A stretch of DNA of 64,000 nucleotides from Peribacillus asahii (GTDB taxonomy: Bacteria; Bacillota; Bacilli; Bacillales; DSM-1321), in NCBI RefSeq assembly GCF_004006295.1, contig NZ_CP026095.1, positions 730,001 to 794,000 on the forward strand. Reading direction: 5' to 3'. The translations under genes and the position numbers were made by a program. This document shows positions 2,507 to 15,276 of this stretch, piece by piece; position 1 is the first letter of the stretch, and each line of letters opens with the position of its first letter. The notes under the pieces were generated by a model. It was not told the DNA's origin. It was given only the letters and a program-made list of their open reading frames with translations, and ran no database searches.

Positions 2507-3061
2507 CTATAGTACAAAGTTGTTTAAGCTGTCTTCTATTTCTTCATCAGTAATTCCAATGTACTTTAAAGTAATTTCAGGGTGTGAATGGTTAAGGATT
2601 ATTTGTAATTTAGCCACGTCTTTACTCTGTTTATAGAACCAGTACCCGAACGTTTTCCGCATGGTATGAGTACCTACACTTTCAATGTCTACCATATCTG
2701 CGGCCTTATTAAGCTGTCTATAGGCTTGTATTTTACTTATAGGTTTATCACCTTTACGTGAAGGGAACAGCCATTCACTATCAACAGTATCAATATAAGC
2801 TGCTAATTCATTAAATACATTATTAAGCTGTATTGTTCTAGGCTTCTTTGTCTTGCCTTCCTTAATAATAACCTTCATCTTACCTTTAATATCCTTTACC
2901 TTTAACGATAATAGATCAGATACACGTAAACCGGTATTAATGCCTAACAGGAACAATATGTAGTCTCTTTCACTGCAATGTCTTTTCAACGACCATTTCA
3001 TATCATTTAATTTTTTCAATGATCTAATAGGTTGAACGTCAATTAAATGTTCCTTTGCCAT
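2507..3061 (-). CDS. Short tyrosine recombinase (integrase catalytic domain only)
   Basis: A 184-residue protein consisting of a tyrosine recombinase catalytic domain. The catalytic set is visible: Arg46 in NTGLRVSDLL, a beta-hairpin lysine near 70-72, His132-x-x-Arg135 in THTMRKTF, a histidine at 158 or 160 in LNHSHPEI, and nucleophile Tyr167 in TLKYIG. Full phage integrases have about 300-400 residues because of N-terminal arm- and core-binding domains, which are absent here. B. subtilis YoeC is a similar short form. The start has an AGGGTGAGG ribosome binding site. The product probably cuts and rejoins DNA, but its substrate is unknown. It is not obviously broken. Confidence 0.85.
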   Translation of the reverse strand: MAKEHLIDVQPIRSLKKLNDMKWSLKRHCSERDYILFLLGINTGLRVSDLLSLKVKDIKGKMKVIIKEGKTKKPRTIQLNNVFNELAAYIDTVDSEWLFPSRKGDKPISKIQAYRQLNKAADMVDIESVGTHTMRKTFGYWFYKQSKDVAKLQIILNHSHPEITLKYIGITDEEIEDSLNNFVL

Positions 3062-3091
3062 TATGCCTCACCCTTTCATTCATACCAGTAG

Positions 3092-3190
3092 AATCAACGT
3101 TTTGAATGTATACTTTTCTTAGTGATTTAACAATATCACTGGTAATGGAATAAAGTCAATTAAATCAGTGTTTTGAAAGTAAACTTTTAT
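3092..3190. repeat. Pair of 28-bp direct repeats upstream of the recombinase
   Basis: Two copies, at 3092-3119 and 3163-3190, match at 23 of 28 positions and share the core GTTTTGAA, then GTAxACTTTT. They are 71 bp apart, about seven helical turns. Between them is an inverted repeat AGTGAT/ATCACT (3121-3140). They lie 30-130 bp upstream of the recombinase start and could be recombinase binding sites or operators. Nothing in the sequence decides between these. Confidence 0.6.
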
Positions 3191-3495
3191 GTATTAGTTT
3201 ACATTTGTGTGACTAGTTATTAGCCAACTCTTACCTTTTGCTTCTTATCTGGCCAAGGCTTCATAGTGTTGATGATAGTACAAGTTAATATGAATACGTT
3301 CTAGGGTGTCAGACTGTTGCCTGATCCAAAGAAAGTAGCAAAGGAGGCCGATGAATAAGGATTAATTAAAAGGTGAGAGGCACGGGTGGTTTATATTCTG
3401 TATAGTTGAATATTAAAAAACGAAGAGACACTCCTAACCAAACATTTTGGAGCTATTTCAAAAAGGGAGGGGGGAGTTTTAAAAGAGACAATAAA
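3191..3495. other. Non-coding stretch with no recognisable gene
   Basis: About 300 bases of AT-rich DNA without a convincing reading frame, ribosome binding site or RNA gene. It lies between the repeats upstream of the recombinase and the terminator of the decayed gene that follows. Confidence 0.5.
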
Positions 3496-3516
3496 AGCCC
3501 CTTACAATAAGAGGCC
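3490..3516 (-). terminator. Terminator after the decayed membrane-protein gene
   Basis: Read on the - strand, GCCTCTTA and TAAGGGGC form a stem around TTG (3497-3515), followed by TTTTATT. It lies directly after the stop of the pseudogene at 3528. Confidence 0.65.
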
Positions 3517-3527
3517 GTTTCATAATT

Positions 3528-3840
3528 TTAAGATTCATCTTTATCATTCGTTAGCTTGTACATTGCAAATCCTAAGTAAACGAATAATGCAACTAATTGG
3601 CTGAAGAACAAGATAAGGAGAAACGTTTTAGTTAAGCTATCGTTATAGGTATCTGCTGGATATGGTAAAAGCATACTTGGATAAATAATACCAACAATAC
3701 AAGCATAGATCAGAGCAGCAAGACCGCCCCAAACCTAACGAGGCTTTCCGATATATAAGAAATTTTGCAGTATTTAAAGTATAAACAGTTGGTAGAAAAA
3801 AAGCACTGAAAATGAATGTTTATAGGATTGTTGTTCTTCA
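3528..3840 (-). pseudogene. Decayed gene for a small integral membrane protein
   Basis: On the - strand a clear coding-like frame ends at a TAA at 3528-3530 and reads GGLAALIYACIVGIIYPSML, then a second hydrophobic stretch LLILFFSQLVALFVYLGFAM and a charged tail KLTNDKDES. Upstream in the same frame there are in-frame stops (after IGKPR and after QLFIL), and no start can be found. Two membrane segments, a polar linker and a terminator behind it indicate a once-real gene. I do not recognise the family. Confidence 0.55.
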
Positions 3841-4080
3841 ACTAAAGGAGCAAGTTAGTTTTACAAGAGGTCATGGTAAACTTCATAAAAGCGAAACGAA
3901 CTGGAATAGAATCAAGGGATAATCGGAATATTAACGAAAAGGAAATATTGGCATTAATGAAGATACCCTAATAATTGTAGCAAAAGCCATGGCAGCTGTT
4001 ATAATAGAATGTCTTGGATAAGAGTAAATAAAGCGAGCAGTTCTTTATGCATCTGGCATAGGGACAGTCTTTTTTTAGGA
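3841..4080. other. Intergenic region before the serine dehydratase
   Basis: No intact gene is visible. A short + strand frame near 3960-4020 reads GINEDTLIIVAKAMAAVIIE before a stop. It resembles a protein C-terminus and may be a gene remnant, but it is too short to assign. Confidence 0.3.
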
Positions 4081-4088
4081 GTGATCAC

Positions 4089-5651
4089 ATGTCTTTTACA
4101 AGTTTAAAAGAATTAATTGAACTTGCAGATCAAGAGAAAACAACCATTTCAGAATTAATGATCAAAACTGAGGTACATCAGAAAGGGTATCCTAGAGAAG
4201 TGATCGTTGAAAAAATGTCGGAACAATTTACGGTAATGGAAGAGGCTGTCCGCAGAGGGACACTGAGTCCCGTTATGTCGCGTACTGGTTTAACAGGAGG
4301 GGATGGAAACCGGCTTTATCAGTATGCTAAAGATGGGAATTCCTTTGTCAATCCTGCCACATTAAATGCCGCAGCGAATGCGTTTGCGGTATCAGAAGTA
4401 AATGCGGCAATGGGACGGATTGTGGCGACGCCAACAGCTGGTTCAGCAGGAATCCTGCCAGCTGTACTTGTTCACGCTCTTGACAGCGGAAAGTTTACAC
4501 GTGAGCAGATTGTACAGTCAATATTCACTGCCTCCGCCCTCGGCTTAGTAATTGCAAATAAAGCTTCGATATCAGGTGCTGCTGGCGGGTGCCAGGCTGA
4601 AGTCGGATCAGCAACCGCAATGGCAGCTGGTACTTTAGTTGAGCTTGCCGGCGGAACACCGATGCAGGTTGGAAATGCCATCGGAATTGCTTTGAAAAAT
4701 TCACTGGGGTTGGTTTGTGATCCCGTTGCTGGACTGGTGGAAATTCCTTGTATCATTCGCAACGGTTTACATGCAATTACCGCCCAAGCTGCGGCAGATA
4801 TGGCTTTAGCTGGGGTAGCCAGCGTCATTCCTGCAGATGAAGTCATCCATGTGATGCATGAAGTAGGACAGCAAATGCCCGAATCGTTGAGAGAAACGGG
4901 GATAGGCGGTCTTGCCGGAACTCCCACAGGGCAAAAATTGAAGGAACAAATTCTAAGCAAAAAAACTAGCGGCCTTGGGCCAGCAAAATACCAAAGTGCG
5001 TATGAGATTATCGGTCCCGTAATGGTCGGCCCTTCGAGTTCTCATACAGCTGGAGCTGTCCGAATCGGGAACATTGCCCGCCAGCTATTAAACGAAAATC
5101 CATTATATGTAAAGTTCTCGCTGACGGGCTCCTTCGCTGAAACCTATCAAGGCCATGGAACAGACCTAGCTCTATTATCAGGTGTTCTTGGGTTATCTAC
5201 AATGGATGAGGGCATTCCAAATGCCAAAAAAATTGCTGAAGAAAATAGCTTACAATACGAATTCACGAAACGGGTGCTTGGAAGCTATCATCCGAATACA
5301 GTTCTTGTAGAATTGACAGGAGCTTCACGTACTGTCAAGGTATTGGCCAGCTCTTTAGGCGGTGGTAAAGTAGAGGTTCAGGAATTTGATGACTATCCAT
5401 TAAAATTTTCAGGAGAACGGCCAACACTTGTAATTCGCCATACCGACCGAACAGGGTTTATTGCTGAATTATCGAGGATTCTTTATCAAAATGGATTTAA
5501 TATCGCCCGTATGGCAAATGAACGTTCAAAAATCAATGGTGCTGCAATCACGATTTGTGAAATCGATAATAAAATCGAAGCGACTCTCTCGTCTTTATTA
5601 AAAAAGGAGATTCCGATTATTGACGAAATTGTCTTGGTTCAAACTAATTAA
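4089..5651 (+). CDS. L-serine ammonia-lyase, fused alpha-beta-ACT form
   Basis: This 520-residue protein deaminates L-serine to pyruvate and ammonia in the cytosol using a 4Fe-4S cluster. Residues 1-295 match the alpha subunit, with likely cluster cysteines C168 (GGCQAEVG), C210 (LVCDPVAG) and C221 (EIPCIIRN). Residues 305-440 match the beta subunit, with its signature GPSSSHTAGAVRIG at 314-327. Residues 445-515 form an ACT domain (PTLVIRHTDRTGFIAELS), probably a serine sensor. B. subtilis uses two separate genes and E. coli SdaA is fused beta then alpha, so the alpha-first order here is unusual. The start ATG follows TAGGAGTG at good spacing. It appears to be transcribed alone. Confidence 0.93.
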   Translation: MSFTSLKELIELADQEKTTISELMIKTEVHQKGYPREVIVEKMSEQFTVMEEAVRRGTLSPVMSRTGLTGGDGNRLYQYAKDGNSFVNPATLNAAANAFAVSEVNAAMGRIVATPTAGSAGILPAVLVHALDSGKFTREQIVQSIFTASALGLVIANKASISGAAGGCQAEVGSATAMAAGTLVELAGGTPMQVGNAIGIALKNSLGLVCDPVAGLVEIPCIIRNGLHAITAQAAADMALAGVASVIPADEVIHVMHEVGQQMPESLRETGIGGLAGTPTGQKLKEQILSKKTSGLGPAKYQSAYEIIGPVMVGPSSSHTAGAVRIGNIARQLLNENPLYVKFSLTGSFAETYQGHGTDLALLSGVLGLSTMDEGIPNAKKIAEENSLQYEFTKRVLGSYHPNTVLVELTGASRTVKVLASSLGGGKVEVQEFDDYPLKFSGERPTLVIRHTDRTGFIAELSRILYQNGFNIARMANERSKINGAAITICEIDNKIEATLSSLLKKEIPIIDEIVLVQTN

Positions 5652-5809
5652 CTCCCTAGAAAGGTATTAATTAGTTTTCCAGAATAAAAAAATTAAACCT
5701 TCACCCAAAGTACGTAAGAACCCAGGTTAGTTGGAGAAGGATTTGTAGTCAGTATAAAGAATTTTAATAATGCAGTGATTTATTTACAGAGATTTAAGTG
5801 CGATATATG

Positions 5810-5853
5810 GAGCAAGAGGGACTGTCGTTTTTGACAGTTCCTCTTGCTCCTTT
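5810..5853 (+). terminator. Strong terminator 3' of the serine dehydratase
   Basis: GAGCAAGAGGGACTGTC and GACAGTTCCTCTTGCTC form a 17-bp stem with one G-T pair, followed by TTTCATTTTTTC. It lies 160 nt after the serine dehydratase stop and faces the convergent IclR gene. Confidence 0.85.
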
Positions 5854-5897
5854 CATTTTTTCTTTTTGCTTGGACCATACATTCTATAGGATATAAA

Positions 5898-6674
5898 TTA
5901 ATGAGTTTTGTTTCCTAATTCCACAGAAATGAGCTCTGTAGAGTGGCAGACATCTTTAATGATCTCTGAAATGGAATATTCATGCATCTTACTTTTAGGT
6001 CCAACTACTGTTACCGCGGCTATAACTTGATCCCATTTGTTTTTAACAGGTGCTGCAACAGCAGTAACGTCTAAGATTACCTCTTCGTTATCAATAGAGT
6101 ATCCCTGTTCCCTTATTTGTCGGGACTGTTCTAAAAAAGCAGCAGAATCTGTAATGCTGAAATCGGTATATTTTATTAAGGGTGATGTTTGCAGCATCTT
6201 TTCAATTTTTGAATCTTCGAGATACGCCATTAAAACCTTTCCTAGAGCTCCGTAATGAGGATCTCTAAATCTTCCAATTGTAGATGTATATCCTATTCCT
6301 TCGATAGTTACTCGTTTATCAATATAAACGAGGTGGTTACTTTCAAGGATAGCTAATAAAACAGAAAAGCCTGTTTTATGATGCAGGGCAGTAAGGTAGG
6401 GGGCCGCTGCATGGATGACATTTAAACGCTGAAGAACAATGCCACCATATCCAAACATTTTCATCCCTAGACAGTAAGTAGAATCCTCAGCGTTATAATG
6501 AACTAGCCCTAGCGTCTCCATTGTGTAAAGAAGGCGATAGGCAGTTGGCTTTGGGATATTTACTAATTTACATATATTCTCGATTGTTTGATATTGGGTA
6601 TCGAGAGAAAAGCAGTCTAAGATGCTAATCGCCTTTTCAAGTGAGTGGTTTAATTTAATGTTTACCTCTCTCAT
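5898..6674 (-). CDS. IclR-family transcriptional regulator of the aromatic cluster
   Basis: A 258-residue IclR-type regulator. The N-terminal winged helix-turn-helix lies at about residues 15-75 (SLEKAISILDCFS, then IPKPTAYRLLYTMETLGLV), and the effector-binding domain fills the rest. The start ATG follows GGAGG at nine bases. It is transcribed away from the luciferase-like monooxygenase gene, and both genes have a near-identical 17-bp palindrome just downstream of their predicted promoters. This implies autoregulation and repression of the catabolic operon until an aromatic acid binds. The inducer is not evident from sequence. Confidence 0.9.
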   Translation of the reverse strand: MREVNIKLNHSLEKAISILDCFSLDTQYQTIENICKLVNIPKPTAYRLLYTMETLGLVHYNAEDSTYCLGMKMFGYGGIVLQRLNVIHAAAPYLTALHHKTGFSVLLAILESNHLVYIDKRVTIEGIGYTSTIGRFRDPHYGALGKVLMAYLEDSKIEKMLQTSPLIKYTDFSITDSAAFLEQSRQIREQGYSIDNEEVILDVTAVAAPVKNKWDQVIAAVTVVGPKSKMHEYSISEIIKDVCHSTELISVELGNKTH

Positions 6675-6705
6675 AGGTGTTTACCTCCAATTAAATTTTA
6701 ATAAC

Positions 6706-6722
6706 AATTCACATATTGAATT
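6706..6722. promoter_or_regulatory. Predicted IclR operator, regulator side
   Basis: AATTCACATATTGAATT is an imperfect palindrome that differs by one base from the site at 6995-7011. It lies just downstream of the predicted start point of the IclR gene promoter, where a repressor would block transcription. Confidence 0.65.
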
Positions 6723-6737
6723 ACTAGTTTGGTGAAT

Positions 6738-6765
6738 AGTATATATATTTCAAATTATAAAGCAA
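6738..6765 (-). promoter_or_regulatory. Predicted promoter of the IclR gene
   Basis: On the - strand, -35 TTGCTT (6760-6765) and -10 TATACT (6738-6743) are separated by 16 bases. The palindrome at 6706-6722 lies about 16 bases downstream of the -10 box. Confidence 0.5.
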
Positions 6766-6797
6766 GGTATATTTCATGAAATTTATACCATTATTTA

Positions 6798-6844
6798 TTT
6801 TGGGCTCATTTTGTGCAACTCTGTTTGGCAAAATGAGCCCGAAA
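6798..6844. other. Long inverted repeat in the divergent promoter region
   Basis: GGGCTCATTTTG (6802-6813) and CAAAATGAGCCC (6829-6840) are a perfect 12-bp inverted repeat around a 15-base spacer. The stem can be extended on the outside with one mismatch. There is no T-run, so it does not look like a terminator. A 68-residue frame across this region is not credible as a gene. Confidence 0.5.
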
Positions 6845-6943
6845 TTGTTTTATTACATACTAGTTTACAGTTGTTTAGATAGGAAAAAACTACTTTTTTT
6901 GATTTTTTTAGAAAATTTATTACATTTTTTTGAACATTTTTCA

Positions 6944-6972
6944 TTGATTTCCTTCGATAAGCGATATATAAT
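6944..6972 (+). promoter_or_regulatory. Predicted promoter of the aromatic catabolic operon
   Basis: -35 TTGATT (6944-6949) and a perfect -10 TATAAT (6967-6972) with a 17-base spacer, about 90 bases before the monooxygenase start. The expected transcription start near 6979 lies right before the double palindrome. Confidence 0.7.
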
Positions 6973-6983
6973 CAGTTTATAAA

Positions 6984-7011
6984 GTGAATCACTTAATTCA
7001 CATAGTGAATT
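6984..7011. promoter_or_regulatory. Predicted IclR operator, operon side (double palindrome)
   Basis: Two overlapping perfect palindromes are present: GTGAAT-CACTTA-ATTCAC (6984-7001) and AATTCAC-ATA-GTGAATT (6995-7011). The second is the same element as at 6706-6722 with one change. The position just after the predicted transcription start fits repression by roadblock. Confidence 0.7.
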
Positions 7012-7063
7012 TAGTGCATGGAAACTTTAATTAAAATTAAAAAAGTAAAGGGAGATGTTGAAT

Positions 7064-8131
7064 ATGCAATTTGGTCTTTCATTTTTTCCAGATAGTCATC
7101 CAGAGGATAAGTCAGGAGAACAATATTTTCGCGAGGCGCTTGATCTTACTGAAGTAGCAGATCAATTAGGATATCATCACGTTCGTATCGTTGAGCATTA
7201 TGAACATGCTTACGGTGGTTATTCTTCAAACCCAAGTATTTTCTTAGCAGCAGCTTCACAAAGAGCAAAAAATCTTCGTCTTGTAACGGGTTGTGTACTT
7301 CCAGCTTTTACTCACCCTGTTAAATTAGCACATGAGTTATCTATGTTAGATGCCATTAGTGGCGGAAGATTAGAAGTTGGATTTGCTCGTGCTTTCTTGC
7401 CTCATGAGTTTAATACGTTCGGTGTACCAATGTCAGAAAGTAACACACGTTACCGTGAAAGTTTAGGAGTCATTCGTCGCTTATGGTCAGAAGATAAAGT
7501 GACACATAATGGAGAAATCTACAATTTTGAAAATGTATCCGTTGTGCCTCGTCCGACTCAAAAGAAAATTCCTACATGGGTAGCAGCAATCCAAACTGCT
7601 GAATCTTTTGAATGGGCTGGCGAAAATGGTCATAATTTGATGGTTGTACCTTATTTAGCGGATTATGATAAATTACGTGAAAATATTCAATTATATAAGA
7701 AGGCTTATGAAAAAGCAGGTCATGGAACAGTTCAGAAAGACCAAATTCAAATGGCGCTACATACGTATATTCATGAAGATGAGCAACAGGCGATTGCAGA
7801 CGCTAAAGGTTATATGGAGCACTATGTAAACGTTTTCCTTGAATCAGCAACGGCATGGGATGCTACTTCTTCTGAACAGTACAAAGGATACGATAAAATA
7901 GCTGAAGGTTTACGAGCTATGACATATGAAAAAGTTTTAAATGAAGGTCGTGCAGCTATTGGTAGTCCTGAAACGGTAATAAAACGATTCAAAGAATTAT
8001 CTGAATTTTTCGATGTTCATCAATTCTCGCTTCAACTGAATTTTGGGAACATGAAGTATGAAGATGCTCTTCGATCCGTTCGTTTATTAGGGGAAAAAGT
8101 AATCCCTGCATTTAAAGCGCTAAATGTTTAA
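7064..8131 (+). CDS. LLM-class flavin-dependent monooxygenase
   Basis: A luciferase-like TIM-barrel monooxygenase of 355 residues (start MQFGLSFFPDSH), with the typical elements RIVEHYEHAYGGYSSNPSIF and GGRLEVGFARAF and a C-terminal GSPETVIKRFKEL. Such enzymes use reduced FMN from a partner reductase to insert one oxygen atom. The start is at 7064, because GGGAG lies nine bases before this ATG and abuts the ATG at 7055. It is the first gene of the IclR-controlled operon, and a matching flavin reductase lies at the far end (14712). Substrate is inferred, perhaps a hydroxyphenylacetate converted to homogentisate. Confidence 0.85.
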   Translation: MQFGLSFFPDSHPEDKSGEQYFREALDLTEVADQLGYHHVRIVEHYEHAYGGYSSNPSIFLAAASQRAKNLRLVTGCVLPAFTHPVKLAHELSMLDAISGGRLEVGFARAFLPHEFNTFGVPMSESNTRYRESLGVIRRLWSEDKVTHNGEIYNFENVSVVPRPTQKKIPTWVAAIQTAESFEWAGENGHNLMVVPYLADYDKLRENIQLYKKAYEKAGHGTVQKDQIQMALHTYIHEDEQQAIADAKGYMEHYVNVFLESATAWDATSSEQYKGYDKIAEGLRAMTYEKVLNEGRAAIGSPETVIKRFKELSEFFDVHQFSLQLNFGNMKYEDALRSVRLLGEKVIPAFKALNV

Positions 8132-8163
8132 TCGTGTATTGTGACAATATTCAAGTAATCTAT

Positions 8164-8192
8164 CGCCCTCTTCAGATTTTAAGAGGAGGGCT
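8164..8192 (+). terminator. Weak hairpin after the monooxygenase gene
   Basis: CCTCTT and AAGAGG pair, with further GC/GC pairing across a bulge, followed by TACTCTTATT. It may attenuate transcription between the monooxygenase and the riboflavin kinase gene rather than end it. Confidence 0.4.
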
Positions 8193-8305
8193 ACTCTTAT
8201 TAATATCGTGTCAATCCGTATGAAAAAATTCGAGTTGGCCAATAAACTATCTGTAGTAGGCAATGAAAACTATTTAATCTTCCCATTTTTGAGAATGTAG
8301 GTGAA

Positions 8306-8722
8306 ATGATGAAAGTGTTAGAGAAAGATAATAAAAAAACGGTTTTTAAAGGTGAAGTCATTCCCGGTCGTCAAATTGGAAGGACAATAGGATTTCCTAC
8401 AGCAAACTTGCGTGTTAACTCTGAGGAGGAACCTTATTTTCCAAAGGGGGTATACGGGGTCCAAGTTTATTATAAAGGTGTTTCGTATAGAGGGGTTATG
8501 AATATTGGAATCAGGCCAACATTTAAGGGAGAAAAGCCAACTGTTTCTTTTGAAGTGTATATCCTTGATTTTAATCAAGATATTTATGGGGAACAATTGA
8601 CGATAGATATTTTGTTTTTTATTCGGAATGAGCAGGCATTTGACTCGATTGAACAGCTGGTTCAACAGCTGAAAAATGATATTGAAAAAGCAAATGAACA
8701 ATTTCTTCTTGTGAATTGTTAG
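8306..8722 (+). CDS. Stand-alone riboflavin kinase
   Basis: A 138-residue protein matching only the C-terminal flavokinase domain of RibF. Conserved motifs are present: GRTIGFPTANL (ATP/Mg site), GVYGVQVYYKG, GVMNIGIRPTF and EVYILDFNQDIYGE with the expected catalytic glutamate. The FAD synthetase half is absent, so it should make FMN but not FAD. It sits directly behind the flavin monooxygenase gene, which suggests a local FMN supply for the two-component monooxygenase. Two adjacent ATGs (8306, 8309) are both possible starts after AGGTG. Confidence 0.88.
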   Translation: MMKVLEKDNKKTVFKGEVIPGRQIGRTIGFPTANLRVNSEEEPYFPKGVYGVQVYYKGVSYRGVMNIGIRPTFKGEKPTVSFEVYILDFNQDIYGEQLTIDILFFIRNEQAFDSIEQLVQQLKNDIEKANEQFLLVNC

Positions 8723-8755
8723 CTTTTTACATCACAAGTTTGGAGGAGTGTTGTA

Positions 8756-9052
8756 ATGAGGAAACGTCAATTAGAGGAAATCTTAAATATGCCAGATTTG
8801 CTTTTTTCACAGCTTTGTGAAGAAAGATATGAAATTAATAAGGGTGTTTACAATACGATTGATCGTTGGTTTTATAATCAAGGATTAAGTCTAATTGTAG
8901 AAAGAAGAGAAATGATTTTATCTTTTATTCAATATATAAGTGTAACTGAAAATCAAGGTAAGAAGGTCAAGTTTGGTTCTGGAGGATTAACGAGAAAACT
9001 GGATCAATTTTGGGAAGAACGAATCCAGACATTCAAACATAAAGCCATGTAA
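8756..9052 (+). CDS. Hypothetical protein of the aromatic cluster
   Basis: A 98-residue basic protein (MRKRQLEEILNMPDLLFSQL) that I do not recognise. It has a strong ribosome binding site GGAGGAG nine bases before its ATG and lies 33 nt after the riboflavin kinase, on the same strand as the rest of the operon. It has alternating helical segments, no membrane region, no cysteine pair motif and no signal peptide. Position implies a role in the same pathway, but nothing more can be said. Confidence 0.7.
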   Translation: MRKRQLEEILNMPDLLFSQLCEERYEINKGVYNTIDRWFYNQGLSLIVERREMILSFIQYISVTENQGKKVKFGSGGLTRKLDQFWEERIQTFKHKAM

Positions 9053-9138
9053 ATAGAGATGATTAATCTAGAAAAATAAATAGGAATTATCGAGTTAATG
9101 ATATAAATTTAAAGATTAGATAAGAAAGGAAAGTTGGA

Positions 9139-10092
9139 ATGATGAATACTAGTCTTTCCGTTTTCCAGAATCGTTTGATTGATTACGCAGGGTTATTCCC
9201 TCCAGCGAATCTATCATTAGACTCCGCTATTAACAATTATTCGCATTATAAGAATAGCGACGATTCTTGGATGTTGGGACCGTTTATTTTACCAGTATCA
9301 CAACTAAAGCAGTTAGATTCGTATATTCACTTATTTTCTGAAGAAATTCCCTTAACTCTTTCTATTACTGGAAGAAAGAGCAGCTCTGAAACAGAGTGTA
9401 AAATGCAGTTTCAAGAAGATATAAAGCACATTTCTGCTTTTATTGATCAGTATGGAAATAAGGTCAAAGTTGAAATGGTTGAAATTCCTTTGCCACCTGA
9501 TGTTCCAAGTTTGGATTTATTGGTTGAAATATCCAGTTCAGCATCAGATTTAAACATGAAAGTATTTTGTGAAGTGCCGCTAATTAGAGATTGGAAAAAT
9601 CATGTATCTGAAACTCTTGATGCAATAACAGCGCACAATTCGTTGAAGGAATCATGGATTGGAGTAAAGCTTCGTACAGGTGGGATTAAAGCCGAGATGT
9701 TTCCTAGCCCTGAACAAGTAGCCTTTGTAATGGCTTCATGTAGAGATCGAAATCTAGCAATGAAGTTCACAGCTGGATTACACCATCCTATTCGAATGTA
9801 TCGTGATGAAGTAAAAACAAAGATGCATGGATTTTTCAATATTTTTATGGCTGGAATGTTGGCCGCCACTCAAAATTTACATGTAAAAAAGATAGAAGAA
9901 ATTCTCTTGGATGAAAACTCAAGTAGTTTCTCTTTTCATGAGGATCGTTTAGCATGGCAGCATTTAAGTGTGACTTCTCAGGAAATAGAAAAGTTAAGAA
10001 AAACATCATTATTATCATTTGGCAGCTGCAGTTTTGATGAACCAAAAGATGAATTAATGGAATTAAAAAATCAACAGGAGGCAATCTTGTGA
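9139..10092 (+). CDS. Unknown protein translationally coupled to fumarylacetoacetase
   Basis: A 317-residue soluble protein of no family that I can name. Distinctive stretches are DYAGLFPPANLSLDSAI near the N-terminus, WIGVKLRTGGIKAEMFPS in the middle, and MKFTAGLHHPIR followed by MHGFFNIFMAGMLA. Alternating strands and helices with conserved-looking Lys, Arg and His suggest a TIM-barrel-like enzyme. Its stop overlaps the fumarylacetoacetase GTG start by four bases (GTGA), a sign of coupled translation and equal dosage. Maleylacetoacetate isomerase is missing from the cluster, so this is a candidate for that step. This is inference; a stand-alone hydrolase or lyase is equally possible. Confidence 0.75.
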   Translation: MMNTSLSVFQNRLIDYAGLFPPANLSLDSAINNYSHYKNSDDSWMLGPFILPVSQLKQLDSYIHLFSEEIPLTLSITGRKSSSETECKMQFQEDIKHISAFIDQYGNKVKVEMVEIPLPPDVPSLDLLVEISSSASDLNMKVFCEVPLIRDWKNHVSETLDAITAHNSLKESWIGVKLRTGGIKAEMFPSPEQVAFVMASCRDRNLAMKFTAGLHHPIRMYRDEVKTKMHGFFNIFMAGMLAATQNLHVKKIEEILLDENSSSFSFHEDRLAWQHLSVTSQEIEKLRKTSLLSFGSCSFDEPKDELMELKNQQEAIL

Positions 10093-11396
10093 AGAAATCA
10101 TTTATCGAAGTAAATCAGGATTCTCATTTTCCGATTCAAAACCTCCCTTATGGTGTATTTAGTACAGAGAATAATAAAACACCTCGAATTGGAGTGGCAA
10201 TAGGGGAATATGTATTGGATTTATCTGTATTAGAAAAAGAAGGGTTTTTTAACGATATCATTACGGAGGATATCACGGTTTTTAATCGTCCAGCCTTAAA
10301 TGACTTTATGAGTTTGGGAAGGGATGTTTGGAGCCGTGTAAGAAAAGAAATCCAAATTTTATTGTCAGCAGATGAACCACGCTTAAGAGATAATTATGCT
10401 CTTCGTAACCTATCTCTTTATTTACAAAATGAAGTGCAGCTTCATCTTCCTGTAGAAATTGGAGATTATACTGATTTTTATGCGTCTAAAGAGCATGCGA
10501 CCAATGTAGGAATTATGTTCCGTGGGAAAGAAAACGCTTTAATGCCCAATTGGACTCATTTACCGGTAGGATACCATGGCCGATCTAGTTCAGTCGTTTT
10601 AAGTGAAACAACGATACGACGTCCGGTTGGTCAAACAAAACCGAAAAATGCTGATGCTCCGATTTTTGGAGCTTGTAAACAACTTGATTTTGAGCTTGAG
10701 ATGGGATTTTTAATAGGTACGGGGAATAAATTAGGCGAACCTATTCCAATTGAACAAGCAGAGCAGCATATTTTTGGTGCGGTGTTAGTGAATGATTGGA
10801 GTGCTCGTGATATCCAAGCATGGGAGTATCAGCCATTAGGGCCTTTCCTCGCGAAAAACTTTTCAACTTCTATATCTCCATGGGTAGTACCATTAGAGGC
10901 ATTAGAATCTTTCCGTGTACCTGGTCCTATACAAGAACCTAAGCCATTAGAGTATCTCAGACAGCAAGGGGACAGCTCTTTTGATATTCAACTAGAAGTC
11001 TATTTAAAGGGAGAAAAGCAAAGTACGCCAAAGCGAATCAGTTCTAGTAACTATCGTTCACTATATTGGAGTGCAGCTCAAATGGTTGCACATCATACTA
11101 TTGGAGGGTGTGATCTGAATCCTGGGGACTTACTGGGTACGGGGACGATTAGCGGATCGGAAAAAGAATCCCGTGGAAGTTTATTAGAATTAACATGGCG
11201 TGGAACAGAGCCAATTAATCTAGGTGAAGGCGAGCAGAGAGAATGGTTAGAAGATGGAGATGAGCTTACGATTACCGGATGGTGTCAAGGCGAAGGTTAT
11301 CGGGTAGGGTTTGGTGAAGTGACAGGAGTGGTAGCGCCTGCGCATGACGTACAGGAAATATTGTCAAAACAAGCACTTGTGTATGATGAAAAATAG
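10089..11396 (+). CDS. fahA: Fumarylacetoacetase
   Basis: A 435-residue enzyme that cleaves fumarylacetoacetate to fumarate and acetoacetate, the last step of homogentisate breakdown. Family signatures are clear: DFYASKEHATNVGIMFRG (metal aspartate and catalytic histidine), LPVGYHGRSSSVV, DFELEMGFLIG (metal glutamates) and NDWSARDIQAWEYQPLGPF. Its length is that of the full family, with the small N-terminal SH3-like domain. It starts with GTG after AGGAGG and overlaps the previous gene by four bases. Homogentisate dioxygenase follows after 33 bases. Confidence 0.97.
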   Translation: MKKSFIEVNQDSHFPIQNLPYGVFSTENNKTPRIGVAIGEYVLDLSVLEKEGFFNDIITEDITVFNRPALNDFMSLGRDVWSRVRKEIQILLSADEPRLRDNYALRNLSLYLQNEVQLHLPVEIGDYTDFYASKEHATNVGIMFRGKENALMPNWTHLPVGYHGRSSSVVLSETTIRRPVGQTKPKNADAPIFGACKQLDFELEMGFLIGTGNKLGEPIPIEQAEQHIFGAVLVNDWSARDIQAWEYQPLGPFLAKNFSTSISPWVVPLEALESFRVPGPIQEPKPLEYLRQQGDSSFDIQLEVYLKGEKQSTPKRISSSNYRSLYWSAAQMVAHHTIGGCDLNPGDLLGTGTISGSEKESRGSLLELTWRGTEPINLGEGEQREWLEDGDELTITGWCQGEGYRVGFGEVTGVVAPAHDVQEILSKQALVYDEK

Positions 11397-11429
11397 ATTT
11401 ATCTCAATTTTGCAGGGGGTATAAAGGAT

Positions 11430-12596
11430 ATGTCATTTTATCGTCAAATGGGAAAAGTGCCTAACAAAAGGCACATTGTTTTTCGAAAGGAAGACGAAAG
11501 CTTATTTAAAGAGCAAGTAATGGGGACAAAAGGGTTTTCAGGGATTCAATCTATTTTATATCACCATAACGCTCCTACTGCATTTTCTAAAACGCATTTA
11601 ATTGGAGAATGTAAGGTAGAGTATGAGGAGCAAGGTGCGCTTCGTCCGCGTCATTTTTATTCTGACAATGTTAATAAAGAACCAAGTGACGCTGTCATGG
11701 GAAGAGAATATGTACTTGGGAATGAGGACTTGTTAATTGGGGTAGTAAACCCTACTGAAAAGATGGATTATTTCTATCGTAATAGCGATGGAGATGAGCT
11801 GTTATTCGTCCATCATGGTTCTGGAAAAATTGAAACTACGTTTGGAACTCTTCAATATAAGCCAGGTGATTATATTGTAATTCCTGTGGGAACCGTTTAT
11901 CGAGTAACACCGGATCAAGGAGAATCTAAGTTCCTTGTGGTGGAAACATCCAGCTGGATCACAACACCTAAGCGTTACCGAAATGAATTTGGTCAATTGC
12001 TCGAGCATAGTCCTTTTTGTGAAAGAGATATAAGAGGACCGGAGAGTCTAGCTACTTACACAGAAAAAGGGGAATTCGAAGTTCGAACAAAATCAAGGGG
12101 ATACTTACATGCCCATTATTTTGAGCATCATCCACTTGATGTTGTTGGCTGGGATGGATATTTATATCCTTGGATTTTCAATGTAAGTGATTTTGAACCA
12201 ATAACTGGGCGTATTCATCAGCCGCCTCCAGTCCATCAAACGTTTGAAGGTCAAAATTTTGTTATTTGCTCCTTTGTTCCACGTTTATATGATTATCACC
12301 CAGAGGCTGTTCCAGCTCCATATTTCCATAGTAACGTAGACAGCGATGAAGTCTTGTATTATGTTGAAGGAAATTTCATGAGCCGAAAGGGAGTAAAAGA
12401 AGAATCGATTACGCTTCATCCATCGGGCATTCCGCATGGTCCGCATCCAGGCAAAATTGAAGATAGTATTGGCAAGAAAGAGACATTGGAATTGGCCGTT
12501 ATGATCGATACATTCCGTCCTTTAAAAGTCGTTAAGAAAGCACAACGATTAGAGGATGAAAACTATCAATATAGCTGGGTTGAGAAAAAGAATTAA
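11430..12596 (+). CDS. hmgA: Homogentisate 1,2-dioxygenase
   Basis: A 388-residue non-haem iron enzyme that opens the homogentisate ring to maleylacetoacetate. The cupin core carries the probable iron ligands H300 and E307 (FHSNVDSDEVLYYVEG) and H336 (PSGIPHGPHPG). The substrate-side segments HYFEHHPLDVVGWDGYLYPW and HQPPPVHQTFEGQNFVICSF are typical of the family. It is shorter than the roughly 430-residue proteobacterial and animal forms, as in other Gram-positive homologues. It follows fahA by 33 bases with an AGGGGG ribosome binding site, and a GC-rich hairpin at 12630-12679 follows it. Confidence 0.95.
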   Translation: MSFYRQMGKVPNKRHIVFRKEDESLFKEQVMGTKGFSGIQSILYHHNAPTAFSKTHLIGECKVEYEEQGALRPRHFYSDNVNKEPSDAVMGREYVLGNEDLLIGVVNPTEKMDYFYRNSDGDELLFVHHGSGKIETTFGTLQYKPGDYIVIPVGTVYRVTPDQGESKFLVVETSSWITTPKRYRNEFGQLLEHSPFCERDIRGPESLATYTEKGEFEVRTKSRGYLHAHYFEHHPLDVVGWDGYLYPWIFNVSDFEPITGRIHQPPPVHQTFEGQNFVICSFVPRLYDYHPEAVPAPYFHSNVDSDEVLYYVEGNFMSRKGVKEESITLHPSGIPHGPHPGKIEDSIGKKETLELAVMIDTFRPLKVVKKAQRLEDENYQYSWVEKKN

Positions 12597-12629
12597 AGGG
12601 TTTTCTGTATAAGAATATAGAGAAGTGTC

Positions 12630-12679
12630 AGGCTGCTTCCCTAATATTCAAAATTTTTAAGAATAGATGGGGGCAGCCT
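12630..12679 (+). terminator. Hairpin between hmgA and the symporter genes
   Basis: AGGCTGC (12630-12636) pairs with GCAGCCT (12673-12679), and CCC/GGG inside adds to the stem. The loop is long and there is no T-run, so it may be an mRNA-processing or partial termination site inside the operon. Confidence 0.35.
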
Positions 12680-12727
12680 AAACTTTAAAGGAATATGAAA
12701 TTATTTCGACTTGGGGTGCTGTTAAAT

Positions 12728-13066
12728 ATGGCTCAATTAGAAGGCAATGCTATCGTTAAAGAAGAAGAACAGTTTATTGATTACAAAAGAATCGCTTCAT
12801 CTGAGGAATTTAAACAGTTGCTTTCACAAAAGAAAAGGTTTATTGTTTCGTATACCATTTTTTATATGGCTTATTCACTTCTTTTACCACTTCTAGCTTT
12901 TTATACAGACATATTAAATCATCCTGTAATAGGAGATATTACGTGGGCTTGGATTTACGGTGTTTCTATGACTGCGATGTCGCTATGGGTGTGTAGGATG
13001 TATATAAAGAAAGCGGCTCAATTTGATGAAGCAGCTAAAGAAATTTTGGAAAAGGAAGGACTATAA
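12728..13066 (+). CDS. DUF485 membrane protein, symporter partner
   Basis: A small inner-membrane protein of the DUF485 (YjcH) family with two hydrophobic segments (FIVSYTIFYMAYSLLLPLLA and a second around WAWIYGVSMTAMSLWV) flanked by charged ends. DUF485 genes are habitually found directly before SSS-family symporters such as ActP, as here (next ATG four bases after the stop). The ATG at 12728 with GGGGTG nine bases upstream fits the usual family length better than the ATG at 12695. It probably assists the symporter. Confidence 0.85.
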   Translation: MAQLEGNAIVKEEEQFIDYKRIASSEEFKQLLSQKKRFIVSYTIFYMAYSLLLPLLAFYTDILNHPVIGDITWAWIYGVSMTAMSLWVCRMYIKKAAQFDEAAKEILEKEGL

Positions 13067-13069
13067 ACG

Positions 13070-14626
13070 ATGAGTTTGAATGTCATTATTCTTTTTGTGT
13101 TCATGTCAATAGGGGTGCTTTTCATTACGTATTTCGCTTCTAAAAAAACAAAAACAGCGGGTTCTTTTTATACAGCCGGAGGTGGCTTGACGGCTAGACA
13201 AAATGGCCTTGCCTTAGCAGGGGATTTTATGTCTGCATCTACATTTTTAGGGTTAATTGGAGCATTTGCATTAACTGGGTATGATGCATTTTTTTTGATG
13301 TACGGTGCGCTCGTTTCTTTCCTAGTAATCTTATTTTTAGTTGCAGAACCGTTACGTAACTTAGGGAAATATACGCTAGGTGATATGATAACGGCTCGCT
13401 TTAAGTATAAGCAGGTGCGTGGTGTAACCGCTCTCAATACAATGATTATCTCGATTTTTTATATGCTTGGACAACTTGTGGCCGCGGGTGCTTTGTTTAA
13501 ATTATTATTAGGTATTCCATATAATACTTCGGTCATCATTGTAGGAATTTTTATGTTAGCCTTTGTTTTGTTCGGAGGTATGACGGCGACAAGCTGGGTA
13601 CAAATCATTAAAGCTATTCTCTTAATAGCTGGATCCATTATTTTATTTGTCCTTGTCATGTGGAGGTTAGATTTTAATTTTATTGGAATCTTTACTGAAA
13701 TGAAAACAACTACGCCATTTGGAGCAGAGTTCTTAAATCCAGGTGTAAAATATACGAGTGGTTTGGAGGCCGCTTCCTTAACCCTTGGCCTTATTTTAGG
13801 AACAGCAGGTCTCCCTCACGTTTTAGTGCGTTTCCTTACTGTACCTAATGCTCAAGTAGCTAGAAAATCTGTCGTTTGGGTGATGTGGATCTTAGGTATT
13901 TTCCACGTTATGGTTATTTTCCTTGGCTTTGGAGCAGCGAAATTAGTTGGATCTGCTAATATTATAGAGGCTAGCCCAGGCGGGAACATGGCCGGCCCTC
14001 TGTTAGCTCAGCTAGTTGGGGGAGACTTCTTGTTTGCTTTCATCTCAGCCGTTTCTTTCGCTACTATTCTCGCAGTTGTTTCTGGAATTGTTGTAACAGG
14101 AGCAACGGCATTTTCACATGATTTTTATAATGAAATTTTAAAAGATGGAAAAGCGACGGAAAAACAACAAATGTTTATGGTTCGTGTTTCATCCATTGTA
14201 ATCACGATTATTTCGATTGGTTTATCCTTATACTTACAGGCGTTTAATGTGACATTTTTAGCCGTACTAGCCCTTACACTTGCTGCAAGTTCGAATTTAC
14301 CGGTTATTTTGTTTACGATTTTTTGGGAGAAATTCAATAAAACAGGGGCTATCGCTGGGATGCTTGTAGGTTTAATCAGTACAATTGGTCTGCTTGCTTT
14401 AAGTCCAAATGTTTGGAATCCGGTACCAGGAGCTGCTTTATTTACTGGAGATCCTATTTTCCCACTTGCATCACCAGGCATCGTTTCTATTCCGTTAGGT
14501 TTCTTAGCTGCTTATATTGGCACACTAATCGGTGCACGTAGGCAACCGGTTGTAGAGGATAATTTTTCAGAAATTCTTGTTAAGGCGAATACAGGAAATG
14601 ACGTTAAAGGAATTGCTAATCACTGA
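13070..14626 (+). CDS. Sodium:solute symporter (SSS family, ActP-like)
   Basis: A 518-residue membrane protein with about 13 hydrophobic helices and SSS motifs, including FYTAGGGLTARQNGLALAGD, YTLGDMITARFKYKQVRG and GTAGLPHVLVRFLTVP. Relatives move acetate, other small monocarboxylates or phenylacetate together with sodium or protons. Its place between homogentisate dioxygenase and the flavin reductase suggests uptake of the aromatic acid that this cluster degrades. That substrate is inferred from position and cannot be read from sequence. Confidence 0.9.
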   Translation: MSLNVIILFVFMSIGVLFITYFASKKTKTAGSFYTAGGGLTARQNGLALAGDFMSASTFLGLIGAFALTGYDAFFLMYGALVSFLVILFLVAEPLRNLGKYTLGDMITARFKYKQVRGVTALNTMIISIFYMLGQLVAAGALFKLLLGIPYNTSVIIVGIFMLAFVLFGGMTATSWVQIIKAILLIAGSIILFVLVMWRLDFNFIGIFTEMKTTTPFGAEFLNPGVKYTSGLEAASLTLGLILGTAGLPHVLVRFLTVPNAQVARKSVVWVMWILGIFHVMVIFLGFGAAKLVGSANIIEASPGGNMAGPLLAQLVGGDFLFAFISAVSFATILAVVSGIVVTGATAFSHDFYNEILKDGKATEKQQMFMVRVSSIVITIISIGLSLYLQAFNVTFLAVLALTLAASSNLPVILFTIFWEKFNKTGAIAGMLVGLISTIGLLALSPNVWNPVPGAALFTGDPIFPLASPGIVSIPLGFLAAYIGTLIGARRQPVVEDNFSEILVKANTGNDVKGIANH

Positions 14627-14711
14627 TTTTCTGTTAAGAAGTGTATGAAATGATAGCAAGTTAACTATGAAATCTAAAAATTAAAAGAATGAAAAAAAGG
14701 GGAGATTTATA

Positions 14712-15215
14712 ATGTCAATCGAGCAAAAACAAAACTTATTTAAAGAGGTAATGGGAAATTACCCAACTGGAGTAACTGTGCTGACGACAACGGATAAAGG
14801 TGGTAATCCTGTTGGTTTAACTGTAAATTCGTTTGCTTCTGTTTCGCTGGATCCTCTTCTAGTACTCTGGTCAATTGATCATAAAGTTAGTACTATTGAT
14901 TCTTTTGTAAATGGAGAGAAATTTGCTGTACACATTTTAGCAGGTGATCAACAAGATGTATGTAAAAACTTCGCTAGTAAAAATGTTGATCGTTTCAGTA
15001 CATGTGAATGGAAGGTTTCAGAACACAATCTTCCAATCATTGAGGGAGTTTTTGCAGTCCTTCAATGTGAAACGTTTCAAACGATTGAAGCTGGAGATCA
15101 CACTATTCTAATTGGTAAAGTTGTTGATATTCAGATTGAACAAAAGGAACCAATGTTATACCACAGAAGACATTTTGATTCAATTCCACCGGAGTTTTAT
15201 GTAGTTAATAATTAA
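14712..15215 (+). CDS. Flavin reductase of a two-component monooxygenase
   Basis: A 167-residue protein of the HpaC-type flavin reductase domain: MGNYPTGVTVLTT, GLTVNSFASVSLDPLLVLWS, FAVHILAGDQQDVCKNFA and GDHTILIGKV are characteristic. It uses NAD(P)H to make free FMNH2 or FADH2 for an oxygenase partner. The only oxygenase of that kind nearby is the luciferase-like protein at 7064, so the two probably work together although they sit at opposite ends of the cluster. The ATG follows AAAAGGGGAG. Confidence 0.9.
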   Translation: MSIEQKQNLFKEVMGNYPTGVTVLTTTDKGGNPVGLTVNSFASVSLDPLLVLWSIDHKVSTIDSFVNGEKFAVHILAGDQQDVCKNFASKNVDRFSTCEWKVSEHNLPIIEGVFAVLQCETFQTIEAGDHTILIGKVVDIQIEQKEPMLYHRRHFDSIPPEFYVVNN

Positions 15216-15233: not shown

Positions 15234-15276
15234 AAACAGACTTCACACTAAATTGTGTGGAGTCTGTTTACTTTTT
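15234..15276 (+). terminator. Terminator of the aromatic catabolic cluster
   Basis: AAACAGACTTCACAC and GTGTGGAGTCTGTTT form a 15-bp stem with G-T pairing around TAAATT, followed by ACTTTTT. It closes the gene run that began at 7064. Confidence 0.85.

Follow-up and report, generated by a model that had tools for sequence, protein, structure and literature searches.

Homogentisate is reached by several routes, which include 4-hydroxyphenylpyruvate dioxygenase (HPPD) and the CYP116B enzyme OhpA acting on 2-hydroxyphenylacetate (PMC8449657). Here we describe a homogentisate island of Peribacillus asahii that is headed by the gene of a luciferase-like monooxygenase (LLM). It lies in a window of 64,000 nucleotides, the whole stretch of DNA analysed (C1:730001-794000 of the 4.89-Mb genome). 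The HPPD-headed clusters of the Bacillus group share with this island the same core in the same order, comprising a 317-residue protein of an unnamed family (p317), fumarylacetoacetase (FAH) and homogentisate 1,2-dioxygenase (HmgA), with one extra gene in four of 25 clusters. Their HmgA proteins are of the same short type, 60-77% identical. The island differs in having an LLM in place of HPPD, together with flavin-supply, symporter, flavin reductase and IclR genes.

The OhpA route of Cupriavidus pinatubonensis also leads from a hydroxyphenylacetate to homogentisate, as we propose for the island, and continues with HmgA and a hydrolase. However, OhpA is a self-sufficient P450 2-hydroxyphenylacetate 5-hydroxylase accompanied by the glutathione-dependent isomerase HmgC, whereas the island has an LLM (PMC8449657). 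The closest solved structure to this LLM is RslO1 (PDB 7BIP, E 4e-84) of the RslO1/RslO2 pair from rishirilide biosynthesis, a proposed two-component flavin mononucleotide (FMN) system with an aromatic substrate. RslO1 is proposed to act together with its flavin reductase in the epoxidation of an aromatic polyketide, which is a biosynthetic step and not the catabolism of a simple aromatic acid as in the island (PMC8093152). The flavin genes of the island recall RibR of Bacillus subtilis, a monofunctional flavokinase that binds RNA, is encoded in a sulfur operon and acts as a block on FMN riboswitches (PMC7693651). The likeness lies in the monofunctional flavokinase, in its joining to the domain of a 98-residue protein (p98) in fused relatives, and in the tie to FMN-dependent monooxygenase genes. 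In contrast to RibR, the island version is split into two genes and is tied to aromatic rather than sulfur catabolism, and the two are likened by layout and not by sequence.

The LLM gene in the HPPD position

The operon consists of nine genes on the + strand (7055-15215, Table 1), the LLM gene being first and the flavin reductase gene last, with intergenic gaps of -4 to 174 bases. Its order is LLM-riboflavin kinase (RFK)-p98-p317-FAH-HmgA, followed by the transport and reductase genes. Profile searches found no HPPD gene in the 64-kb window, and the island is not HPPD-headed. The sequence-only reading had built its case on this absence, which is true of the window and false for the genome. 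Two HPPD genes above cut-off (474.5 and 458.8 bits) are located outside the window, at C1:4119483 and C1:829461, ruling out the idea of a host without another homogentisate source. Both head FAH-HmgA clusters, in the orders HPPD-p317-FAH-HmgA-Na+/H+ antiporter-family gene-Glu/Leu/Phe/Val dehydrogenase and HPPD-truncated p317-FAH-HmgA. In the latter (L019, G000:C1:820000-839900) the p317 frame is shortened to 103 aa (9085-9396), and FAH and HmgA are full length. The host genome holds three homogentisate clusters, the third of which has an LLM and flavin genes in the HPPD position, and this comparison of gene order is more telling than the argument from absence.

The p317 gene was searched in 43 genomes of the family (7 positive, one of which, G026, was left out of cluster inspection) and in 397 genomes of the order (21 positive). 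Outside the LLM lineage 25 clusters were inspected, and HPPD stands at the head of every one: two from the host itself, four in L021-L024 and 19 in L098-L117. One of them, in G374, is divided over contig ends (L100, L101) and was joined assuming circularity and counted once. The clusters were located via p317; those lacking it would escape, and the constant position of p317 beside FAH is partly built in. Four of the 25 (L098, L100, L103, L106) have an additional gene of 367-371 aa between FAH and HmgA, which is named hisC on a plasmid with the identical order.

LLM-headed clusters in other genomes

Scanning genome contigs with the LLM protein of the window revealed three close loci with 82-87% identity. 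The first, from Bacillus sp. EB600 (L015, identical with L096), carries genes for the LLM, a RibBA-like protein, flavokinase, p98, an NADPH-dependent FMN reductase, p317, FAH, HmgA, DUF485, an SSS symporter and CoA-transferase A and B. The other two are from Bacillus sp. B15-48. L016 comprises TRAP transporter genes, LLM, p98, p317, FAH, HmgA, an XylR_N/V4R regulator and a glyoxalase/extradiol-family gene; L017 comprises IclR, LLM, flavokinase and p98, with acyl-CoA genes upstream and no adjacent FAH or HmgA. In the draft assemblies of EB600 and B15-48 no HPPD was found above cut-off (best 36.8 and 33.6 bits vs 277), and each has two fumarylacetoacetases above cut-off.

Each of these genomes has a second cluster (L093 in EB600, L092 in B15-48), composed of another LLM type (type B), an FMN reductase, p317, FAH, HmgA and a transporter. 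Type-B LLMs are 29-33% identical to those of type A, to which the window LLM belongs, and about 32% identical to the window LLM. In these two genomes, for which no HPPD was recognised, homogentisate clusters are headed by two distinct LLM types. The FMN reductase of L092 scores 100 bits with the MsuE model, below its cut-off, and the top family of the L092 transporter is aromatic acid/H+ symport (340 bits, cut-off 418.6). L093 also carries an FAD-synthetase-domain gene and CoA-transferase genes; the latter are present in both EB600 clusters, which fits with acetoacetate use. A DUF3870 protein is encoded directly before the type-B LLM gene in L093 (1341-1709, 65.2 bits) and in L092 (13736-14065).

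In a tree of joined FAH, HmgA and p317 sequences from 30 clusters (p317 of L019 missing), the five LLM-headed clusters are split from the HPPD-headed ones with a support of 100, their status as a clade depending on midpoint rooting. L016 and L092 of B15-48 group together despite their differing LLM types. Comparison of L016 (12830-15317) with L092 (8351-10838) yields identities of 99.0% for HmgA, 94.2% for FAH and only 50.8% for p317. As HmgA and FAH are far more alike than p317 or the head enzymes, this suggests a recent exchange between the two cluster copies.

Type-B LLM was found in none of 328 genomes of the order at 1e-90, in a search run without a positive control. In wider samples, type A was found in one of 397 genomes at 1e-90 and one of 398 at 1e-65, in both cases the host genome itself, with at most about five candidates scored per genome. 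Four LLM relatives on Streptomyces plasmids (38-43% identity, from 1276 matched records) have no annotated FAH or HmgA beside them; their neighbours are polyketide or peptide genes (L056-L058) or aminotransferase and P450 genes (L059).

The island could be a third copy of the lower tyrosine pathway that is fed by a distant HPPD, with an unrelated LLM, for example of sulfur scavenging, merely adjacent. The two HPPD genes of the host favour this explanation, as do the LLM-RFK-p98 unit of L017 without FAH and HmgA and the RibR-type domains that adjoin SsuD-like monooxygenases elsewhere. We regard it as quite unlikely, since the LLM cluster is present in EB600 and B15-48, where no HPPD exceeds the cut-off, and since two different LLM types occupy a head slot that belongs to HPPD in all 25 other clusters.

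The LLM enzyme and its proposed reaction

None of the best 25 of 30 NCBIfam matches of the window LLM reached a cut-off. A separate flavin reductase gene is present in the LLM operon, as in a two-component system. A further relative was found in G032, a genome of the same genus. Its LLM protein is 51% identical to that of the window, and its gene is flanked on one side by TRAP transporter genes and on the other by a gentisate 1,2-dioxygenase-like gene (327.6 bits, cut-off 442). Here, too, a 2,5-dihydroxy aryl acid would be the product. The surrounding 20-kb stretch (L020, G032:C22:22500-42400) also contains another gentisate 1,2-dioxygenase-like gene, one more LLM gene and genes for a DinB protein and an FAA hydrolase, and no FAD_binding_3 match was found within it. 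Neither HPPD nor FAH was found above cut-off in G032. Gentisate and homogentisate are one CH2 apart, and the chemistry that their formation shares is the para-hydroxylation of an aryl acid with a hydroxy group in the ortho or meta position. Because the gentisate-type relative would share this chemistry, we prefer 2- or 3-hydroxyphenylacetate as the substrate of the island enzyme.

We consider it rather probable that the operon is catabolic and inducible and that its LLM, as a two-component, FMNH2-dependent enzyme, converts an imported aromatic acid to homogentisate, the likeliest reaction being the para-hydroxylation of 2- or 3-hydroxyphenylacetate. That the LLM is the homogentisate-forming oxygenase of the cluster had been suggested from the island alone. 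This suggestion loses its argument from absence and gains comparative support from the HPPD slot, the absence of an HPPD above cut-off in EB600 and B15-48, the second LLM type and the gentisate-type relative.

Alternatively, the LLM might make homogentisate from another precursor or by another reaction, such as 4-hydroxyphenylacetate with a side-chain shift, phenylacetate in two steps, or an aryl ketone, ether or sulfonate. Differing substrates are suggested by the transporters, which across the clusters are of the SSS/DUF485, TRAP and aromatic-acid types, and LLM chemistry is broad, RslO1 being thought to epoxidise an aromatic polyketide (PMC8093152). However, the gentisate-type relative fits better with a shared para-hydroxylation of hydroxyaryl acids than with most of these alternatives, and the family scan recognised no additional side-chain enzyme among the island proteins, so this explanation appears unlikely to us.

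The homogentisate could also come from a class A flavoprotein or a P450 hydroxylase encoded elsewhere, the LLM acting upstream, for example from an aryl aldehyde to the acid. Each of the four genomes searched has 12 to 20 FAD_binding_3 matches, of which many are weak, a Rhodococcus plasmid carries HmgA-p317-FAH beside an FAD_binding_3 gene, and a P450 performs this step in Cupriavidus (PMC8449657). Nevertheless, the best FAD_binding_3 genes of EB600 (L095) and B15-48 (L094) adjoin a glyoxalase/extradiol-family gene instead, and we give this explanation a very slim chance. No P450 or FAD_binding_3 protein was found among the ten island proteins.

Several observations weigh against homogentisate formation by the LLM. 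EB600 and B15-48 are drafts of unstated completeness, and these HPPD-less genomes hold genes of the FAD_binding_3 monooxygenase family whose products could make homogentisate. The LLM-RFK-p98 unit also occurs near acyl-CoA genes without FAH and HmgA (L017), so at least one use of the unit need not involve homogentisate. The reductase partner varies, belonging to another family in EB600 and being unrecognised beside the LLM of L016. L016 moreover has no adjacent IclR gene, has a weaker match to the operator described below and has a p98 gene without an adjoining flavokinase gene, and the type-B clusters are without both of these flavin genes. LLM enzymes are mostly associated with aldehydes, sulfonates, epoxidation and Baeyer-Villiger chemistry. 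About 40 kb from the G032 LLM, a second gentisate-type set (L097, G032:C22:66000-85900) contains an FAD_binding_3 gene, a dioxygenase-like cupin and an FAA hydrolase. L097 is a parallel case, in which a similar core has a different head enzyme, and it cautions that the gentisate of G032 may have another source.

The homogentisate core and a candidate isomerase

FAH is a full member of the TIGR01266 family. The HmgA-like protein scores 72.8 bits with TIGR01015 and does not reach the cut-off of 510.75. Its residues H300, E307 and H336 align with the His, Glu and His of solved dioxygenases, which we take to be the iron ligands, and are invariant in all 30 HmgA proteins from the clusters studied. 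Judged by this predicted active site, the protein is a homogentisate 1,2-dioxygenase despite the low model score.

No match to the p317 protein was found in Pfam or NCBIfam at E 0.001 or among PDB sequences. A p317 profile against solved structures gave a keratin as best match (E 0.05), 16 members searched against Pfam gave stray weak matches alone, and viral contigs yielded nothing useful. Its predicted structure is a barrel with DERA as the closest fold, and Lys177 and Lys209 are kept in all 32 members. The p317 gene adjoins FAH in the Bacillus-group clusters inspected (L018, L092, L093, L098-L117), which were located via p317. A maleylacetoacetate isomerase of the glutathione S-transferase (GST) type (TIGR01262) was found in none of 27 cluster genomes, the control search giving matches in 3 of 14 cases, one of them above cut-off. 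Based on its place next to FAH and on the 27 genomes without the GST-type enzyme, p317 is a candidate glutathione-independent maleylacetoacetate isomerase.

The family is also present in three actinobacterial plasmid sets (L168-L170). In L168 (Rhodococcus rhodochrous pNit, 2633-8085), HmgA-p317-FAH lies beside a divergent FAD_binding_3 aromatic-ring hydroxylase gene, which is another possible head enzyme on the p317 core.

Flavin supply

The p98 domain is fused behind flavokinase in proteins of 243-264 aa from four genomes (L132/L162, L135, L136, L137), one of which lies next to an LLM gene and an ABC transporter set of the family-3 amino-acid type, a gene context that presumably matches that of the B. 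subtilis ribR operon. From these fusions we conclude that RFK and p98 probably represent a RibR-type protein split into two genes, forming an FMN-supply module. By analogy with RibR we propose that p98 may relieve an FMN riboswitch; none was found in the five stretches scanned. The p98 model is all-helical (pLDDT 83.9), and its fold search gave no match below E 3.4. Flavin genes recur in the LLM loci, with RFK and p98 in the window, L096 and L017, p98 in L016, a RibBA-like gene in L096 and the FAD-synthetase-domain gene in L093.

The p98 domain occurs in 32 of 338 genomes of the order at E <= 1e-8. A role as a subunit peculiar to the LLM enzyme is ruled out, as the domain is widespread and flavokinase-fused elsewhere. 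Neighbourhoods were inspected at 20 of 36 listed places, the p98 frame itself not being recovered in L155. Fourteen contain matches to an LLM, a flavin reductase or a separate or fused flavokinase (some at only 27-30% identity, with no background control), and six contain none of these. On plasmids, in the 6 records inspected out of 13, the domain is found near LLM or SsuD-type genes or between UbiX/UbiD-type decarboxylase genes; one of them, L046, is unannotated and its LLM was recognised by family match. In the Priestia megaterium plasmids L047 and L048 (about 9083-12221), a RibR-type domain is encoded between the B and C subunit genes of a non-oxidative hydroxyarylic acid decarboxylase, which works with prenylated FMN. 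The host has a second flavokinase and 98-aa pair (L148, G000:C1:631000-641500, at 4794-5487); downstream of it lie a 400-aa gene that by eye resembles acyl-CoA dehydrogenases and an SsuD-like gene. Where no family score is stated, the names of neighbouring genes are likewise readings of the sequence.

Regulation and gene content of the island

A promoter-like site precedes the operon, in a scan that overall was not above chance (27 found vs 32.5 expected). Directly downstream of its -10-like hexamer lies the putative IclR operator (Table 1). Each of the four type-A loci has a site of the AGTGAATCANNNAATTCACNNAGTGAAT type ahead of its LLM gene, exact in the window, L017 and L096 and with 4-5 mismatches in L016. 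It is the sole one in the window at up to six mismatches, and a slightly stricter pattern gave none at up to seven mismatches in the two type-B stretches. The motif was derived from the loci on which it was scored, so the shuffle control is partly circular. The IclR protein of the window is 70% identical to that beside the LLM of L017. We infer that IclR may repress the operon through this site.

All the open frames named in the sequence-only reading were confirmed at their places and in their families, and the terminator at the end of the island was confirmed as well. A longer terminator-like stem is present at 5809-5850, upstream of the island. The label HpaC-type, given earlier to the flavin reductase, is loose (TIGR02296 68 bits vs 206), although the protein is a flavin reductase. 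Its best solved match is 5zc2, the reductase of p-hydroxyphenylacetate 3-hydroxylase (6.7e-35), and the NCBIfam models of that reductase and of FerA score best, both below cut-off. The top NCBIfam model of the symporter is MctC (530.7 bits, under the cut-off of 670). Positions 1-2088 of the window contain the 3' end of a 23S rRNA gene, a 5S rRNA gene and 15 tRNA genes.

Table 1. Features of the LLM-headed island; positions are those of the window.
Feature	Position	Strand	Evidence
IclR-family regulator	5898..6674	-	PF01614 128.5 bits, PF09339 44.2 bits; divergent from operon
Promoter-like site TTGATT-17-TATAAT	6944..6972	+	Consensus scan, 10/12 matches
Putative IclR operator AGTGAATCACTTAATTCACATAGTGAAT	6983..7010	+	Position below -10-like hexamer
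LLM monooxygenase	7055..8131	+	PF00296 205 bits (cut-off 27.9), residues 4-317
Riboflavin kinase (RFK), monofunctional; probable N-terminal half of split RibR-type protein	8306..8722	+	PF01687 140.8 bits
p98, 98 aa, probable RibR-type C-terminal domain	8756..9052	+	Same domain fused to flavokinase elsewhere
p317, 317 aa, candidate maleylacetoacetate isomerase	9139..10092	+	Barrel model, invariant lysines
Fumarylacetoacetase (FAH)	10089..11396	+	TIGR01266 631 bits (cut-off 375.3); 4-base overlap with p317 gene
Homogentisate 1,2-dioxygenase (HmgA), short divergent type, 388 aa	11430..12596	+	PF20510 56.4 bits, PF04209 22.1 bits
DUF485 small membrane protein, pairs with symporter	12695..13066	+	PF04341 64.3 bits
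SSS-family monocarboxylate symporter, putative aromatic-acid importer	13070..14626	+	PF00474 337 bits
Flavin reductase, putative FMNH2 source for LLM	14712..15215	+	PF01613 154.7 bits
Intrinsic terminator closing operon	15234..15269	+	15-pair stem, 6-base loop, T-rich tail

Proposed pathway and implications

Based on the island and its relatives, we propose the following pathway. The SSS/DUF485 symporter would bring in the aromatic acid, and IclR would block the operon from the operator below the -10 hexamer until an aromatic ligand lifts the repression. The flavokinase and the RibR-type domain would enlarge the FMN pool, from which the flavin reductase would provide FMNH2 to the LLM. The LLM would then para-hydroxylate 2- or 3-hydroxyphenylacetate to homogentisate, whose ring would be cleaved by HmgA. 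Subsequently, p317 may convert maleylacetoacetate to fumarylacetoacetate, from which FAH would yield fumarate and acetoacetate.

More broadly, we tentatively suggest, with less than even confidence, that in the Bacillus group LLMs were recruited at least twice, from two distant subgroups, as ring hydroxylases that convert hydroxyaryl acids to homogentisate (gentisate in a relative). FMN riboswitch control would be overridden by the split RibR-type module that accompanies one of them, and p317 would complete the route as a new glutathione-independent, lysine-based isomerase family shared with actinobacteria. Among the papers listed in searches of the openly accessible literature, none appeared to describe an LLM enzyme making homogentisate or gentisate, subscription papers being outside the search.

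The p317 family offers a concrete candidate for the isomerase step in the cluster genomes, where the GST-type enzyme was not found. If the proposed reaction is true, HPPD, single-component flavoproteins and CYP116B P450s would be joined by a new enzyme class among the routes to homogentisate, and LLMs would gain a catabolic role on simple aromatic acids. RibR-type flavin control, which has been described for sulfur metabolism (PMC7693651), would in turn be linked to aromatic catabolism.

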